Assembly: GCA_023251075.1 (NCBI GenBank)
Contig: JAHEZM010000003.1
Span: forward strand, 1-64,000
Direction of reading: 5' to 3'
DNA: 64,000 nt
Source of the DNA: Flavobacteriales bacterium
GTDB lineage: Bacteria; Bacteroidota; Bacteroidia; Flavobacteriales_C; GCA-002722245
Positions 9,091-45,959 of the stretch are shown here, piece after piece (the first letter of the stretch is position 1; every line of letters starts with the position of its first letter). Both the position numbers and the translations under genes were made by a program. The notes under the pieces are model-generated. The model worked only from the letters and a program-made list of their open reading frames with translations, was not told the origin of the DNA and did not search any database.

Positions 9091-9852
9091 ATGATTAGCG
9101 TAATTAAAATTGGCGGCGGTATTATTGAAGACCAAAGCTCTTTGGCGAAATTTTTAGAATCCTTCTCTAAAATTGAAGGCAAAAAAATATTGATTCATGG
9201 GGGGGGTAGAGTAGCTACCAATATGGCCAAAAAACTCGGCATAGAAAGCAAAATGATTGATGGTAGAAGAGTTACCGATGATGCTACTTTGGAAGTAGTA
9301 ACGATGGTGTATGGTGGATTGGCTAATAAAACCATTGTTACAGGTTTACAAGCTTTGAAAGTAAATGCAATTGGTTTAACAGGTGCTGATGGCAATATAA
9401 TACAAGCACACAAACGCACCGGTTGGGAACATGATTTTGGGTGGGTGGGTGATGTAGATAGTGTGAATGCACAACTGTTGAATACGCTTATTAATTCGGG
9501 ATTGGTTCCGGTGATTGCTCCGCTTACACATGATGGTGCCGGGCATATGTTGAACACCAATGCAGATACCATTGCATCGGAAGTAGCTAAGGCTATGTCT
9601 GCTATTGAAGAGACTCAACTTATTTTAGGTTTTGAGTTGGATGGCGTGATGAAAAATCCGAAAGATTCTACCACATTGATTTCTTCTATCAATCAACAAG
9701 ATTATGAGAATTATAAAGCCGATGGAACTATTACCGATGGCATGATTCCTAAGCTCGACAATGCTTTTAAAGCGATTGCCAGTGGTGTAGGGAGTGTGAG
9801 AATTTGTCATGCTTTGAAAGTGGGGGAGAAGGGGGGAACGGTGATTCATTAA
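9091..9852 (+). CDS. argB: Acetylglutamate kinase
   Basis: 253 residues. ArgB phosphorylates N-acetylglutamate (some Bacteroidota use a succinylated form) in the second step of arginine synthesis, in the cytoplasm. The N-terminal KIGGG (6-10) and the HGGG (about 37-40) are the nucleotide-binding glycine motifs of the amino-acid kinase fold; GRRVTD and NTNADTIA are typical of ArgB. The length is normal. Other arg biosynthesis genes are not adjacent; an M20 deacylase that could be ArgE-like lies 38 kb away. The stop codon is directly followed by a structured repeat that appears again in inverted orientation at 10411-10620. Confidence 0.93.
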   Translation: MISVIKIGGGIIEDQSSLAKFLESFSKIEGKKILIHGGGRVATNMAKKLGIESKMIDGRRVTDDATLEVVTMVYGGLANKTIVTGLQALKVNAIGLTGADGNIIQAHKRTGWEHDFGWVGDVDSVNAQLLNTLINSGLVPVIAPLTHDGAGHMLNTNADTIASEVAKAMSAIEETQLILGFELDGVMKNPKDSTTLISSINQQDYENYKADGTITDGMIPKLDNAFKAIASGVGSVRICHALKVGEKGGTVIH

Positions 9853-9998
9853 TTTTCTTTGCTAAAGAAACAAAGCCTTACTTTTTTCAGAGATGAAGAA
9901 GTAAGCAAAAAATCATAAGCCAAAAGATGCTGTCTTTCCGCGCCCCCTCCGTCAGCTGACGGACTGGCCAGCACGCAATAGTGGTGGCATTACCGGAA
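9850..9998 (+). repeat. Structured repeat, family 5 copy A (shorter)
   Basis: Begins at the argB stop codon with hairpin TTCTTTGCTAAAGAA, then a CTTACTT/AAGTAAG hairpin, then AAAAGATGCT and a C-rich stretch, and ends with CTGGCC and CAATAGT. A palindrome CCGTCAGCTGACGG lies at 9949-9962. The reverse complement of 10411-10620 has the same blocks in the same order, with about 60-90 additional nt in the middle. Confidence 0.8.
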
Positions 9999-10000
9999 AT

Positions 10001-10381
10001 TTAGAGGGAAAAATAAAAATCCTGGTGGTAAGTAGAGTTTCGATATTTTCTCCACTTATTTTTTAATTTCTTTTCATCTACCTCGCAAGCAATGAAAATA
10101 TATTTCGGATTTAGCTCCTTGTTTGCTTTTCTTCTGTTGAATGGTTTTACTACAGATGGACAAGCGGTTTGCCATTCCACTTCAATTCGAAAATGTCCGT
10201 TTGAATCTGTTCTTATTGTTTTCGTTTTTTCACCTATCGTAATTACCAATAAAACGTTTTTAAGTGCAAGATTAGCTGTGCTGAAAGCTGTGCCTTCAAT
10301 ATAATAAACCCCTCCGGTCCCCTTCGAAAAACCAAGAGAAATAGAGAAAACAAAAAATAAAAATAAAAGTGCCTTTTTCAT
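10001..10381 (-). CDS. Small exported protein, carboxypeptidase-regulatory-like fold
   Basis: 126 residues with a signal peptide (MKKALLFLFFVFSISLGFS). After it comes YYIEGTAFSTANLALKNVLLVI, a short beta-rich core with TDSNGHFRIEV, the strand-turn-strand that is typical of carboxypeptidase-regulatory-like (transthyretin-type) domains in Bacteroidota. The C-terminal third is basic. No catalytic residues were recognised. It may act in the periplasm as a binding module. It sits alone between argB and the GH3-family gene and is flanked on both sides by inverted copies of one structured repeat (9850-9998 and 10411-10620), which suggests the repeats arrived around or with it. Confidence 0.7.
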   Translation of the reverse strand: MKKALLFLFFVFSISLGFSKGTGGVYYIEGTAFSTANLALKNVLLVITIGEKTKTIRTDSNGHFRIEVEWQTACPSVVKPFNRRKANKELNPKYIFIACEVDEKKLKNKWRKYRNSTYHQDFYFSL

Positions 10382-10410
10382 ATCCTCGTTAAAACTACAA
10401 AATATTTCTA

Positions 10411-10620
10411 AGCGATATGGGATACTATTGTGCGGAGGCCAGAGTGAAAAGGCGGGCGTGTGATGGAGGGAATTGAAATTTTAGCTTCCGACCCAAGAAG
10501 GAAGCGTTAAAAAATTTCAAGGGCGGGGAGAAGCATCTTTTCGCTCTTGAATTCTTTGCTTACTTTCTGTTTCAAGACAGAAAGTAAGTATTTGCTTCTT
10601 TATAAAAGAAGAATAAATTA
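10411..10620 (-). repeat. Structured repeat, family 5 copy B (longer, inverted)
   Basis: Read on the minus strand it starts at the stop codon of the GH3-family gene, with hairpin CTTCTTTTATAAAGAAG, then a perfect CTTACTTTCTGT/ACAGAAAGTAAG hairpin, AAAAGATGCTTCTCCCCGCC, a TTTTTTAACGCTTCC stretch, and ends near CTGGCC and CAATAGT. Block order matches copy A at 9850-9998. Confidence 0.82.
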
Positions 10621-12111
10621 CACTTTAAAAGCACTTAAAGCATCAGCAATTTTCCTATCATTCCCCAAGCGGGGAACTTTATTTTGCCCGCCTAATTTCC
10701 CTTCCGATTTCATGTAAGAAATAAAACCATCTTTAGCGATTTCGGTGAGCACTAATGAGCGTAAAATATTTCCGGTAATCAAATCTTTGTAATACACATT
10801 TTGTTTCACCATTTGTTCATTCAAATATTGAACAAAATCATTCAAATCTTTCGGACGTTCTCTAAATTCCACTAACCATTCATGATAGGGTAATCCTTCT
10901 TTGGGTGCAACTTGGGGAGCCACGGTAAATTCGGTAACTTCTACTTTAAATTTTTCGCAAGCGACAATCATGGCTCTATCTACTTCTTCCCCTATCACGT
11001 GTTCACCAAATGCAGAAATAAAATGTTTAATTCTTCCCGAAACAACAATGCGGTATGGATGGGTTGAAACGAATTTTATGGTGTCACCAATGTTGTATCC
11101 AAATAAGCCGGCATTGGTGTTTAAGATGATGGCGTAGTTCACACCTACTTTCACATCCTTCAAAGAAATACGTGTTGGATTTTCATTAAAAAATTCATCG
11201 GCGGGAATAAATTCAAAGAAAATTCCGGCATTGGTGTTGAGTAATAAACCTTCGTGTTTTTGTGAATCCTGAAAAGCAATAAATCCTTCTGATGCAGGAT
11301 ATACTTCAACCGTAGGAATTGATTTGCCAATAATATTTTCGAGAATGGGTTGGTACGGACGATAGTTTACGCCACCTTGAACGAACAAAGAAAAATTGGG
11401 AAATACATCTTTAATTTGTTTTCCTGTTTTTGCTTGAATGCGTTCGAAATACATTTGAACCCATGGCGGAATGCCTGATATCACGCGCATATCTTCATTC
11501 ACCGTTTCTTCAATAACGGCATCAAGTTTGGTTTCCCAATCGCTAATGCAATTGGTTTCGTAAGAAGGCTTTCTGTTTTTTTGCAAGTATTTTGGAACGT
11601 GGTGCGCAGTAATGCCGGAGAGCCGGCCGGTGGGCGTTTTATAAGTGTTGTCTAATTCCGGACTCCCTTGTAGGAAAATCATTTTTCCATCCACAAATTC
11701 TGCTTTGCCTGTTTCAGCTATATACAACAGAATCGCGTTGCGTGCAGCAGTGATATGATGTGGCATGGATTCTTTTGAAATAGGAATGTATTTTACTCCT
11801 GAAGTGGTGCCCGATGTTTTGCTGAAATACATGGGTAAGCCCGGCCACAAAACATTTTCTTCATCGTGTTTAATGCGCTCAATGTATTTTTTTATTCCTT
11901 CGTAATCGTTAACCGGAACGGCCTTTTTAAAATCTTCGTAATTTTTTATGGAAGAGAATTTATGGTCTTTTCCAAAGGCTGTGTTCTTTGCCGTTTCAAT
12001 TAAATGCTGTAAAGTTTTCTCCTGCAATTCAACGGCACGAGCGGCTTCCTTATAAACCTTTTTAGAAATATATTTTGCAAATGGTTTGCTTAATGCTGCT
12101 TTTAATCCCAT
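10618..12111 (-). CDS. GH3-family acyl-adenylating protein (auxin-responsive GH3-like)
   Basis: 497 residues, the usual length for the family. The ATP/AMP motif FSKTSGTTSGVKYIPIS (about residues 97-113) is the hallmark of the GH3 branch of acyl-adenylate-forming enzymes. Further family features are YPASEGFIAFQD, the loop NTNAGIFFEFIP and the GRIKHFISAFGEHV segment that joins the C-terminal domain. Plant relatives join amino acids to carboxylic acids; the role in Bacteroidota, where the gene is common, is not established. No signal peptide, so cytoplasmic. It is leftward, alone, and its stop borders the inverted structured repeat. Confidence 0.88.
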   Translation of the reverse strand: MGLKAALSKPFAKYISKKVYKEAARAVELQEKTLQHLIETAKNTAFGKDHKFSSIKNYEDFKKAVPVNDYEGIKKYIERIKHDEENVLWPGLPMYFSKTSGTTSGVKYIPISKESMPHHITAARNAILLYIAETGKAEFVDGKMIFLQGSPELDNTYKTPTGRLSGITAHHVPKYLQKNRKPSYETNCISDWETKLDAVIEETVNEDMRVISGIPPWVQMYFERIQAKTGKQIKDVFPNFSLFVQGGVNYRPYQPILENIIGKSIPTVEVYPASEGFIAFQDSQKHEGLLLNTNAGIFFEFIPADEFFNENPTRISLKDVKVGVNYAIILNTNAGLFGYNIGDTIKFVSTHPYRIVVSGRIKHFISAFGEHVIGEEVDRAMIVACEKFKVEVTEFTVAPQVAPKEGLPYHEWLVEFRERPKDLNDFVQYLNEQMVKQNVYYKDLITGNILRSLVLTEIAKDGFISYMKSEGKLGGQNKVPRLGNDRKIADALSAFKV

Positions 12112-37608: not shown

Positions 37609-38772
37609 ATGGAAAAGAAAAAAATCGCCATACTCGGTTCATCCGGTTCTATAGGAACTCAGGCTTTAGAAGTGATTCAGGAGCATCCTGATCAGTTTGA
37701 AGTAGAAGTTTTAACGGTGAATTCCAATGCTGATTTACTCATTGAACAAAGCAAAAAATTTAAACCCAATACAGTTGTAATTGCCGACGAAAGTAAGTAC
37801 ACTTATGTGAAGGAAGCGCTTGCGAATGAAGATATTCATGTATGGGCGGGCGAAGAGGCTTTGTCGCAGGTAATGGAAATGGATGCCATTGATGTGGTGC
37901 TTACGGCAGTGGTTGGTTTTGCTGGTTTAAAACCTACTTTATCGGCGATCAATGCGGGTAAACACATTGCTTTGGCCAATAAAGAAACTTTAGTGGTGGC
38001 GGGTGATTTGGTAACTAAAGCTGCTCGTGATAAAGGGGTAAATATTTATCCTGTTGATTCCGAACACTCTGCTATTTTTCAATGTTTAGCAGGAGAATTT
38101 CAAAATAAAATTGAAAAAATTTATTTAACTGCTTCTGGTGGACCCTTTCGCGGAATGAGTGTTGAACAGTTGAGTTCAGTAACCAAGGCACAGGCCTTGA
38201 AACATCCCAATTGGGATATGGGGGCGAAAATCACCATTGATTCTGCATCGATGATGAATAAAGGATTAGAAGTGATTGAGGCGCGTTGGTTGTTTGGCCT
38301 GCAGCCCGATCAAATTGATGTGGTAGTACATCCGCAATCCATCGTTCATTCTATTGTTCAATTTGAAGATGGATCGATGAAAGCACAAATGGGATTGCCC
38401 GATATGAAATTGCCCATTCAATACGCAATGGCCTATCCACAAAGGTTAAAATCGTCTTTTAAAAGATTTAACTTTTTAAATTACCCATCGCTCACATTTG
38501 AATCGGCCGATACAAAAACTTTTCGTAATCTTGCTTTAGCATACAGCGCTCTGAGGAAAGGGGGAAATTCACCTTGTATTTTAAACGCAGCAAATGAAGT
38601 AGTGGTAGATGCATTCCTGAAAGATAAAGTGCGGTTTTTGGAGATGCCTGATATAATTGAGCAATGTATGAGTGCCGTACAATTTGTGGCGCAACCTACA
38701 TTACAGGATTATTTGAATTGCGATCGGGAAACAAGAGCGTTGGCGAAAGAAATTATTTTAAAAACTGTTTGA
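37609..38772 (+). CDS. dxr: 1-deoxy-D-xylulose 5-phosphate reductoisomerase
   Basis: 387 residues from the ATG at 37609 (MEKKKIAILGSSGSIG); the open frame extends 28 codons upstream across the terminator, so that extension is rejected. Converts DXP to MEP with NADPH in the MEP isoprenoid pathway. GSSGSIG binds NADPH, VDSEHSAIFQCL holds the metal-binding Asp and Glu, and SMMNKGLEVIEARWLFG is the flexible-loop region with the other metal Glu. Family length is about 390. rseP follows after 9 bp, as in many bacteria. Confidence 0.96.
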   Translation: MEKKKIAILGSSGSIGTQALEVIQEHPDQFEVEVLTVNSNADLLIEQSKKFKPNTVVIADESKYTYVKEALANEDIHVWAGEEALSQVMEMDAIDVVLTAVVGFAGLKPTLSAINAGKHIALANKETLVVAGDLVTKAARDKGVNIYPVDSEHSAIFQCLAGEFQNKIEKIYLTASGGPFRGMSVEQLSSVTKAQALKHPNWDMGAKITIDSASMMNKGLEVIEARWLFGLQPDQIDVVVHPQSIVHSIVQFEDGSMKAQMGLPDMKLPIQYAMAYPQRLKSSFKRFNFLNYPSLTFESADTKTFRNLALAYSALRKGGNSPCILNAANEVVVDAFLKDKVRFLEMPDIIEQCMSAVQFVAQPTLQDYLNCDRETRALAKEIILKTV

Positions 38773-45046: not shown

Positions 45047-45959
45047 AGTAAATACAATTTTTTTAGGATATGCTGGTTCTAATCTCACTTCTCTCCGTCG
45101 GTTGACGGAGAGAGTGCCAAAGGAATTGCGAAGTGGCAAGAGGGATTTTATAGGGTTGGAATTATCTAAGCAAAATCCCTCTTGCCTTTACCCACAAAGT
45201 CAGCGCACTCTCTCCGTCAACCGACGGAGAGAAGTAGGATTACCGCTTCTGTACTCATTAATTTTCTCTTTTCTTTTCTTTTCTTCTTTCAATACTCCCG
45301 ATTCATATTATACTCAATCTGCTTCTTCATTTTTCTCTTCTGGCATTGCCGATAAAACTTTAACTCTTTCTTCTGCCGATCCGGAGTTGTTGAATGCCAC
45401 AGTGTTTCATACTATTAATCAATTGCGGGAGAAGAAAGGAAAATTACCTTTTGAATATTCTCCTGAATTGAATAAAGTGGCTCAGAGTTATTTAGAAAAG
45501 ATGGAGAAAAGAAAATTCACCAATCCTGAAGCCATTCAAAGTAAATATGTGAAAATAATTTTAAATGATGCCAAAGCACAAGGCTTTAAAGGTACATTAG
45601 TAAATATGAATGCACAACAGTATCAAGCCATAGATTATAATGGAAAGGAGTTTTTTTACAATAGAAAAGATAGTACAACGCAGTTGAAATTGTTTTATGG
45701 AAAAATGCCTGTGAAAAATGAAAAACACCCTGAAAGAGATTCTATTTCATGTTATACTTACAAAGCTTTTGCGGAGCAAATAGTGGATGAAATGTTGAAG
45801 AACGATAAACAAAAAGTTACTTTGAGTAAGGCCTATAAATTTTCTTCCTGTGTGTTACAGTGGGATTACTCTACTTTGTACAAAAGAAAGATTCCTCAAA
45901 TTAAGTTGATTCAAGTGGCTGGTGGGTTTCAAACCGATTTGATGCAGGAGGAGGATTAG
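45015..45959 (+). CDS. CAP (SCP)-domain protein with a repeat inserted at its 5' end
   Basis: The frame opens at ATG 45015, or at 45030 (MNLKNKVNTIF), and overlaps the LRR gene end by 17-32 bp. From about residue 130 it shows a CAP-domain start, LLNATVFHTINQLREKKGKLPFEYSPELNKVA, with VAQSYLEKMEKRKF; the C-terminal third fits weakly. The first 75 residues are unusual: residues 22-76 are the translation of an inverted repeat (45081-45241), and the signal-like helix LLYSLIFSFLFFSSF comes only after it. No ATG, GTG or TTG lies between the repeat and the hydrophobic segment. Either the repeat is translated, or the original start was lost. Extracellular role uncertain. Confidence 0.6.
   Translation: MLIFTMNLKNKVNTIFLGYAGSNLTSLRRLTERVPKELRSGKRDFIGLELSKQNPSCLYPQSQRTLSVNRRREVGLPLLYSLIFSFLFFSSFNTPDSYYTQSASSFFSSGIADKTLTLSSADPELLNATVFHTINQLREKKGKLPFEYSPELNKVAQSYLEKMEKRKFTNPEAIQSKYVKIILNDAKAQGFKGTLVNMNAQQYQAIDYNGKEFFYNRKDSTTQLKLFYGKMPVKNEKHPERDSISCYTYKAFAEQIVDEMLKNDKQKVTLSKAYKFSSCVLQWDYSTLYKRKIPQIKLIQVAGGFQTDLMQEED
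45081..45241. repeat. Palindromic element, family 4, inside the CAP gene
   Basis: Perfect 30-nt outer arms at 45088-45117 and 45205-45234 (TCTCCGTCGGTTGACGGAGA core), extending to 45081-45241 with few mismatches, and inner 15-nt arms at 45135-45149 and 45172-45186 (GGCAAGAGGGATTTT). It stays open in the CAP-domain reading frame. Confidence 0.92.

Follow-up and report, generated by a model that had tools for sequence, protein, structure and literature searches.

Two inverted, facing copies of one sequence enclose a gene of 126 residues in the window analysed here, a 64,000-nt stretch at positions 1 to 64,000 of contig JAHEZM010000003.1 from a Flavobacteriales bacterium. A preliminary description took the arrangement to be either a composite unit or a pair of 3′-end elements that might be transcribed and fold into structured RNA. 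We asked whether the two copies belong to a larger family, whether their fold is maintained when their letters change, and what kind of element could account for both.

Two facing copies of one structured repeat

The ordered blocks from which the locus was originally recognized were all recovered, in 9850-9998 and on the minus strand of 10411-10620. Both copies carry the same series of H1, a CTTACTT..AAGTAAG hairpin, AAAAGATGCT, a C-rich stretch, GGCC and CAATAGT, and both were matched by the covariance model R1 (see below), in agreement with one structured repeat present as two inverted, facing copies (Table 1). The argB stop codon marks the start of copy A, and the stop codon of the GH3-family gene that of copy B, as had been reported. 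The middle arm said to be missing from copy A is indeed absent, and the palindrome TCCGTCAGCTGACGGA stands in its place. The pseudoknot helix S2 of copy A is weak, with approximately three pairs, and was missed by the pseudoknot descriptor; copy A is decaying, whereas copy B is intact. The enclosed gene showed only a faint similarity to CarboxypepD_reg, under the Pfam cut-off (E=0.023).

Table 1. Coordinates of the two repeat copies, their parts and the adjacent genes in the window.
Feature	Position	Strand	Basis and remarks
argB-like amino-acid kinase gene	9091..9852	+	ORF call; Pfam AA_kinase, E=9.3e-41; stop codon 9850-9852 abuts copy A
Copy A (degenerate, long arm lost)	9852..9990	+	R1 match 9878-9985
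Hairpin H1 of copy A (TTTCTTT/AAAGAAA)	9854..9870	+	Block order; fold
Hairpin S1 of copy A	9877..9905	+	Block order; fold; CTTACTT..AAGTAAG
Palindrome TCCGTCAGCTGACGGA in place of the long arm of copy A	9948..9963
126-residue gene between copies A and B	10001..10381	-	ORF call; signal-peptide-like start
Copy B (complete)	10411..10620	-	BLAST, fold; R1 match 10421-10587
Hairpin H1 of copy B	10595..10611	-	Block order; fold
Hairpin S1 of copy B (CTTACTT..AAGTAAG)	10559-10588	-	Arms 10577-10588/10559-10570
H-type pseudoknot of copy B	10546..10588	-	Descriptor; covariation; A-rich linker between helices
Helix S2 of copy B	10571-10576 with 10546-10551	-	Loop CTTGAA pairs with TTCAAG
Arm P3 of copy B with inner stem H4	10441..10545	-	Fold; covariation
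Basal stem of P3, copy B	10537-10545 with 10443-10451	-
3′ end of copy B, GGCC..CGCACAATAGT	10420..10440	-
GH3-family gene	10618..12111	-	ORF call; Pfam GH3; stop codon abuts copy B

The surroundings of the GH3-family gene differ from those in most relatives. It is adjacent to dxr in six of the seven relatives (G002-G007; not in G001), and here the two genes lie 25 kb apart, with dxr at 37609. An inversion by recombination between repeat copies was considered: the break on the GH3 side coincides with copy B, but the dxr side carries no repeat, and such an inversion is therefore not claimed. Elsewhere in the window, 45082-45232 contains another pair of inverted palindromes that is unrelated to the repeat, CTCTCCGTCGGTTGACGGAGAG ... 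CTCTCCGTCAACCGACGGAGAG, which encloses GAGGGATTT/AAATCCCTC. This pair resembles palindrome pairs that sister species have at addresses of the repeat (L392, L400) and also one of the two kinds of tail behind repeat copies.

A repeat family dispersed across Bacteroidota

Model R1 was trained on 17 sequences, none of them from the genome studied here and thus neither copy A nor copy B. When R1 was run over the whole 3.28-Mb genome, it recovered copy B (E=4.6e-7) and copy A (E=8.5e-4) together with two further copies, named C16 (E=3.6e-7) and C19 (E=2.2e-7) after their contigs, and nothing else at E<=0.01; plain BLAST against the whole genome connected the same four. Because R1 was built without either copy and nevertheless recovers both, the likeness of A and B is not due to chance. 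Many more copies were found in sister species. At E<=0.01, against four matches in its own genome, R1 gave 9, 40 (G002), 34 (G003) and 2 matches in four congeners, and no match in five genomes of the sister genus.

The family extends well beyond the genus. An exact core pattern was present in 18 of 395 genomes of the class and its reversed control in none of the 395; the pattern misses the genome studied here because its copies carry other letters. With R1 at E<=1e-7 and strict filters, at least 17 of 149 class genomes, from 13 of 99 genera, contained the repeat, a tally that is a lower bound, as the own genome itself does not reach that limit. A search with several positions left free (see below) returned, among the matches listed, titles including Pedobacter, Mucilaginibacter, Dyadobacter, Fluviicola, Vaginella, Faecalibacter, Dysgonomonas, Chryseobacterium, Chitinophaga, Cardinium, Prevotella, Saprospiraceae and many MAGs. 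All of the 80 titles listed were Bacteroidota except one plain "bacterium" and a record with the label Nomurabacteria, perhaps through an error in binning. Three IMG/VR contigs (L389, L390 and L391) also contain the core pattern, and no BLAST match to the unit at L213, a pair of copies in G002, was obtained in the plasmid and phage collections.

Copies A and B are thus members of one large repeat family that is dispersed between genes across Bacteroidota. The family has apparently not been described before: a search of open-licence PMC text found no description of it, Rfam 15 at gathering scores placed no family over the repeat in the window or at 12 class-wide loci, and Rfam at relaxed E values gave nothing convincing at five loci of the genus. 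On the reverse strand, the repeat gives rise to short conserved reading frames of an FFLDKKVTK-like kind (L270, L375, L382, L286, L363 and similar loci), from which spurious hypothetical proteins are likely to have arisen in Bacteroidota.

The fold is conserved while the letters change

Read 5′ to 3′ on the element strand, the repeat consists of an optional A/T hairpin H1, the hairpin S1, a pseudoknot, the arm P3, GGCC..CGCAC and a lineage-specific ending, which is CAATAGT here and GAAGTTAG in two sister species; the core measures 110 to 200 nt. S1 is of the CTTACTTTTT/AAAAAGTAAG type, and a stretch of its loop (CTTGAT, CTTGAA, CTTGGC, AAAGAT and others) pairs beyond S1, over an A-rich linker, to form an H-type pseudoknot. 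The outer stem of P3 has letters that vary by genome, and it encloses a variable inner part and conserved unpaired motifs that are AUGCUUCC-like on the 5′ side and CGCCCGC-like on the 3′ side.

As single strands, copies B, C16 and C19 folded better than each of 200 shuffled sequences (z scores -3.6, -4.5 and -3.9, respectively); copy A folded more weakly (z -2.3), and 4 of 200 shuffles equalled it. In alignment A3, which comprises 17 sequences, most of them found by a pattern search fixing CTTGAT, the helices S1 and S2 barely vary because that search had fixed these letters. In P3, by contrast, seven of nine pairs were changed on both sides with no single-sided change, and the covariation score of the whole structure was 0.267, compared with 0.083 after shuffling; none of 500 shuffles reached 0.267. 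Within the own clade (B, C16, C19 and six G001 copies), 22 of 36 pairs were changed on both sides, including five of the six pairs of the pseudoknot, while only one cell was changed single-sidedly and 89% of cells were paired. In both sets the compensatory changes exceeded shuffled and slid controls, as expected of a structured single strand, whether RNA or DNA, although the covariation numbers overstate the number of events because related sequences are not independent.

The pairs of S1 and S2 were assessed by the free-position search, in which the closing pair of S1 and the last two pairs of S2 were left unfixed and CTTG/CAAG and most of S1 were fixed. This search yielded at least 120 genome stretches and three viral contigs, with 128 distinct matches among those listed. 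The S1 closing pair was Watson-Crick in 127 of these 128, where 48 would be expected if the two sides were independent, and its letters were TA in 61, GC in 44, CG in 21 and AT in one. For the last S2 pair the corresponding values among the matches listed were 126 of 128 and 83 expected; the middle S2 pair (124 of 128 listed, 122 expected) is almost invariant. At least eight of the nine P3 pairs were Watson-Crick in 51 of 107 matches listed, compared with 7 of 107 when the downstream sequence was shuffled, and the well-paired arms represented 39 distinct stems. The mismatches at positions 1-8 of these distinct stems (position 9, which lies outside many stems, was left out) were eight G-U and one A-C among the matches listed; all eight G-U occur at one stem position, in stems of one letter type, and the genus set contained no G-U and two A-C mismatches. 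This asymmetry does not discriminate between a strand of RNA and one of DNA.

The fold, that is, the pairing of the S1 loop with downstream sequence, P3 and the GGCC..CGCAC end, is shown by these data to be conserved while its letters change. Strong compensatory changes, for which the preliminary description had suggested a check, are present in the family.

Mosaic structure and turnover at shared addresses

The repeat is embedded in other modules. Some copies have H1 upstream of S1, others have a palindrome such as GAGGCTTTCAGCCTC, whose spacing is nearly constant, and others have neither; downstream there is one of two recurring kinds of tail, or none. The palindrome TCCGTCAGCTGACGGA replaces part of the arm not only in copy A but also in L183 of the sister species G001, and it was found as well beside the copies of L068 and L235 and, in L124, on the 5′ side of a Y1-transposase-like gene.

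Addresses were compared for 24 G002 loci, 21 G003 loci and a few of G001 and G004. Nine addresses were common to G002 and G003 or G004; in seven of them the copy resembled a paralogue from the same genome more closely than its counterpart at that address in the other species, and the other two were ties. At two conserved gene pairs, helicase-mnmE (the G002 pair L213) and atpC-plsC (own copy C16), named from their translated letters, an inverted palindrome of another kind stands in the sister species and the repeat is absent (best R1 E value at these sister sites, 0.02). L080 is a decayed remnant opposite L214, and one further G002 copy stands where G003 has a gene. No clean empty site was found among the addresses compared. 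No consistent target duplication was found either, the flanks other than those of L213 being read by eye; at L213, a direct repeat of 12 nt and low complexity flanks the pair.

Arrangement and gene context

Among the 89 R1 matches in the five congeners, 71 were single copies, and all nine close pairs (within approximately 1.1 kb) faced inward. Most facing pairs span 45 to 240 nt of non-coding sequence; two enclose a gene, namely the pair in the window and one in G002. These inverted pairs, set in a mosaic with other intergenic repeat modules, have the layout of BIMEs and REPINs. Outside the genus, neighbouring copies in a wide set identified by a noisy descriptor were facing in four cases, diverging in four and tandem in seven, so the facing pair is not universal. 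Genome G132 has seven strong same-strand matches within 12 kb, many approximately 300 bp apart and each followed by other palindromes, and genomes of family f41 have units of approximately 500 bp with an inverted second arm. In the G132 array (L409, 11400-14250), the units of approximately 300 bp consist of the repeat followed by palindromes (CTCCGGAGGAG, CCCGGGTTTTAACCCGGG, CCAGCGCTGG), and units differ compensatorily in their pseudoknot letters (CTTGACC/GGTCAAG and CTTGGC/GCCAAG).

Gene context was evaluated for 63 copies, with genes called by a simple longest-ORF rule, after L234 (at a contig edge) and the weak antisense matches L221 1459 and L206 1599 had been dropped. Of these, 21 begin within approximately 40 nt of the stop codon of a same-strand gene. 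The 40 unpaired copies with both neighbours called lay between convergent genes in 13 cases, between co-directional genes in the sense orientation in 11 and in the antisense orientation in 11, and between divergent genes in five; neither neighbour bias was significant (p=0.27), and the head of copy C16 points at a gene start. Placement behind a stop codon, from which a 3′-end element had been proposed, consequently does not hold as a rule; the position of A and B is frequent, not defining.

The notion of a composite unit survived in part. The facing pair does recur as a unit in this genus, but the 126-residue gene does not appear to belong to it. This gene has no relative in nine other genomes of its own family, and the single relative elsewhere among 60 genomes searched comes from a different family and has no repeat copy at its locus. 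The gene is probably not cargo and merely stands between the arms. A composite transposon with A and B as its ends and this gene as its cargo would fit the enclosed gene and its absence from the nine family genomes; against it, most other facing pairs enclose nothing but short non-coding sequence and the one relative has no copy beside it, and we consider this origin highly improbable.

Search for a mobilizing or partner gene

ORFs within 2.5 kb of the copies were clustered by BLAST for at least 123 loci (the 120 or more genome stretches and three viral contigs). No recurring neighbour emerged beyond common genes; the largest cluster among the loci listed, ABC-transporter ATPases at eight loci, is itself a common gene.

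Y1 transposase-like genes are present in the genus, some of them RAYT-like and of the subclass 2.6 type. In PMC6006769, the signature of this subclass is reported for Bacteroidetes, and its TnpA_REP genes are described as flanked by atypical structures. RAYT as the direct partner was rejected, as R1 found no copy at E<0.05 at 57 Y1_Tnp loci, taken from the genus, from further relatives and from 18 genomes that carry copies (best E values of 0.093 at 27 loci and 1.5 at 30 loci); the descriptor was also applied. At seven RAYT-like loci of the genus, flanks read by eye contained other palindromes wherever a flank was present. These loci, of the subclass 2.6 type (L113, on C36 of the own genome, and L115, L116, L119, L120, L123 and L125), are mostly flanked by palindromes like GAAGCTGAAAGCTTC..CTAAACTTAGCAGAG, which constitute a separate REP family of the genus. 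No GTAG/GGAG-like foot was seen by eye in the 5′ flanks of the repeat. Palindromes found beside Y1 genes do abut or invade repeat copies (L079, L073 and the TCCGTCAGCTGACGGA cases), and a RAYT or other Y1 protein could therefore act on the repeat in trans.

Discussion

We think it probable that the repeat is a non-autonomous, dispersed, mosaic DNA element of Bacteroidota, BIME- or REPIN-like, on which selection acts at the level of the family, by way of its folded single strand. Such an element is favoured over an RNA acting in cis at 3′ ends because the fold persists through the turnover of letters and addresses, because the copies have no strand preference relative to genes and because copy numbers vary greatly. 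With its letters free and its knotted shape kept, the repeat looks like a genomic hitch-hiker recognized by shape. A and B would be the two arms of a facing pair that works much as REPs, BIMEs and REPINs do, with a larger and more elaborate fold. An enzyme may recognize that fold, for which an HUH/Y1 protein working on single-stranded DNA in trans or an enzyme that copies RNA could be candidates; if so, selection would act on the shape of the family and not on single insertions, and copies could spread or overwrite one another between genes. Several points count against this reading: neither a clean empty site nor a consistent target duplication was found, no copy was found at the 57 Y1 loci, neighbouring copies outside the genus can also be tandem or diverging, spread by gene conversion alone would equally explain the turnover, and a pseudoknot linker rich in A is a feature more of RNA than of DNA.

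Were the repeat a functional structured RNA, made from a promoter of its own or by read-through and retained for what the RNA does, for example as a 3′-end stabilizer, terminator or small RNA, this would account readily for the conserved H-type pseudoknot with its A-rich linker and compensatory changes, for the copies starting shortly after same-strand stop codons and for the excess of G-U over A-C mismatches in P3. That excess is confined to a single stem position, however, and is not seen in the genus set; co-directional single copies are evenly divided between sense and antisense, shared addresses exchange subtypes or lose the repeat, no conserved promoter-like 5′ sequence was seen by eye and Rfam has no match. 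We therefore regard this alternative as quite unlikely. A second group of explanations would see static intergenic structures, such as sites for gyrase or nucleoid proteins or transcription barriers, that are selected at gene boundaries and homogenized by gene conversion. Copy numbers ranging from 2 to 40 within the genus and falling to zero in the sister genus are difficult to reconcile with this idea, as are the tandem arrays of G132; we judge it improbable, even though nine addresses are common to species, sister species keep some palindrome at an address, even one of another family, and divergent genes flank only 5 of the 40 single copies.

The repeat might instead be the REP of a RAYT (TnpA_REP) system, with the host genome's own RAYT moving it in trans. 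Genes of the subclass 2.6 type do occur in the genus, atypical flanking structures are reported for that subclass in PMC6006769, palindromes from beside Y1 genes abut or invade copies (L079 and L073; TCCGTCAGCTGACGGA in copy A and L183 and near L124), and the paired inverted layout is that of REPINs. We nevertheless hold it unlikely, given that the subclass-2.6-like genes of the genus are mostly flanked by a different palindrome, that the 27 and 30 Y1 loci are without a copy, that no GTAG-type foot was seen and that the repeat is several times the size of a REP. Returning to the dispersed DNA element, a bolder version, which we find possible though doubtful, is a phylum-wide class of genomic parasite defined by its pseudoknotted single strand and not by its sequence, whose enzyme would recognize that strand as DNA or RNA, write it as interchangeable modules into preferred intergenic addresses and overwrite earlier palindromes there.

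Dispersed bacterial palindromes have so far been known mainly as simple hairpins linked to RAYTs. Here, the fold is much larger, with a pseudoknot and a long arm, and is kept across Bacteroidota through compensatory changes; it matches no Rfam family and lies beside none of the transposases examined. The repeat provides a search image and a covariance model with which the enzyme that reads it could be found, and a natural system for watching turnover at fixed intergenic addresses between strains.

Several known systems share features with the repeat. The Rfam motifs Flavo-1, Bacteroidales-1 and Bacteroides-1 are likewise structured intergenic motifs of the phylum, but none matched over the repeat in the window, at the 12 class-wide loci or at the five genus loci. 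Integron attC sites were considered for their folded variable arms and set aside, since no conserved core boxes were seen. MITEs, reportedly known from Porphyromonas gingivalis, resemble the family as small non-autonomous repeats of Bacteroidota with an inverted pair layout; in single copies here, however, no perfect terminal inverted repeats were seen, and neither a consistent target duplication nor a related transposase was found. The STAXI motif, as described in PMC2864571, is also a repeated pseudoknot for which a role in single-stranded DNA has been considered, but it lies beside genes for ssDNA-binding, topoisomerase, antirestriction or integrase proteins, whereas the repeat has no gene partner and is not a tandem pseudoknot. 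The atypical REPs of TnpA_REP subclass 2.6 occur in the same phylum and, according to PMC6006769, are likewise atypical structures that recur at other places in the genome; the structures beside the genes of this genus, however, are another sequence family that sometimes abuts the repeat. REPs, BIMEs and REPINs with RAYT are also short, dispersed, intergenic, palindromic, non-coding and mosaic and occur singly or in inverted pairs. The repeat differs from them in adjoining none of the 57 Y1/RAYT genes examined, in that no GTAG foot was seen, and in its build: where they have one hairpin of 20-65 nt, it has a pseudoknot and a long arm that covaries, in a core of 110-200 nt.
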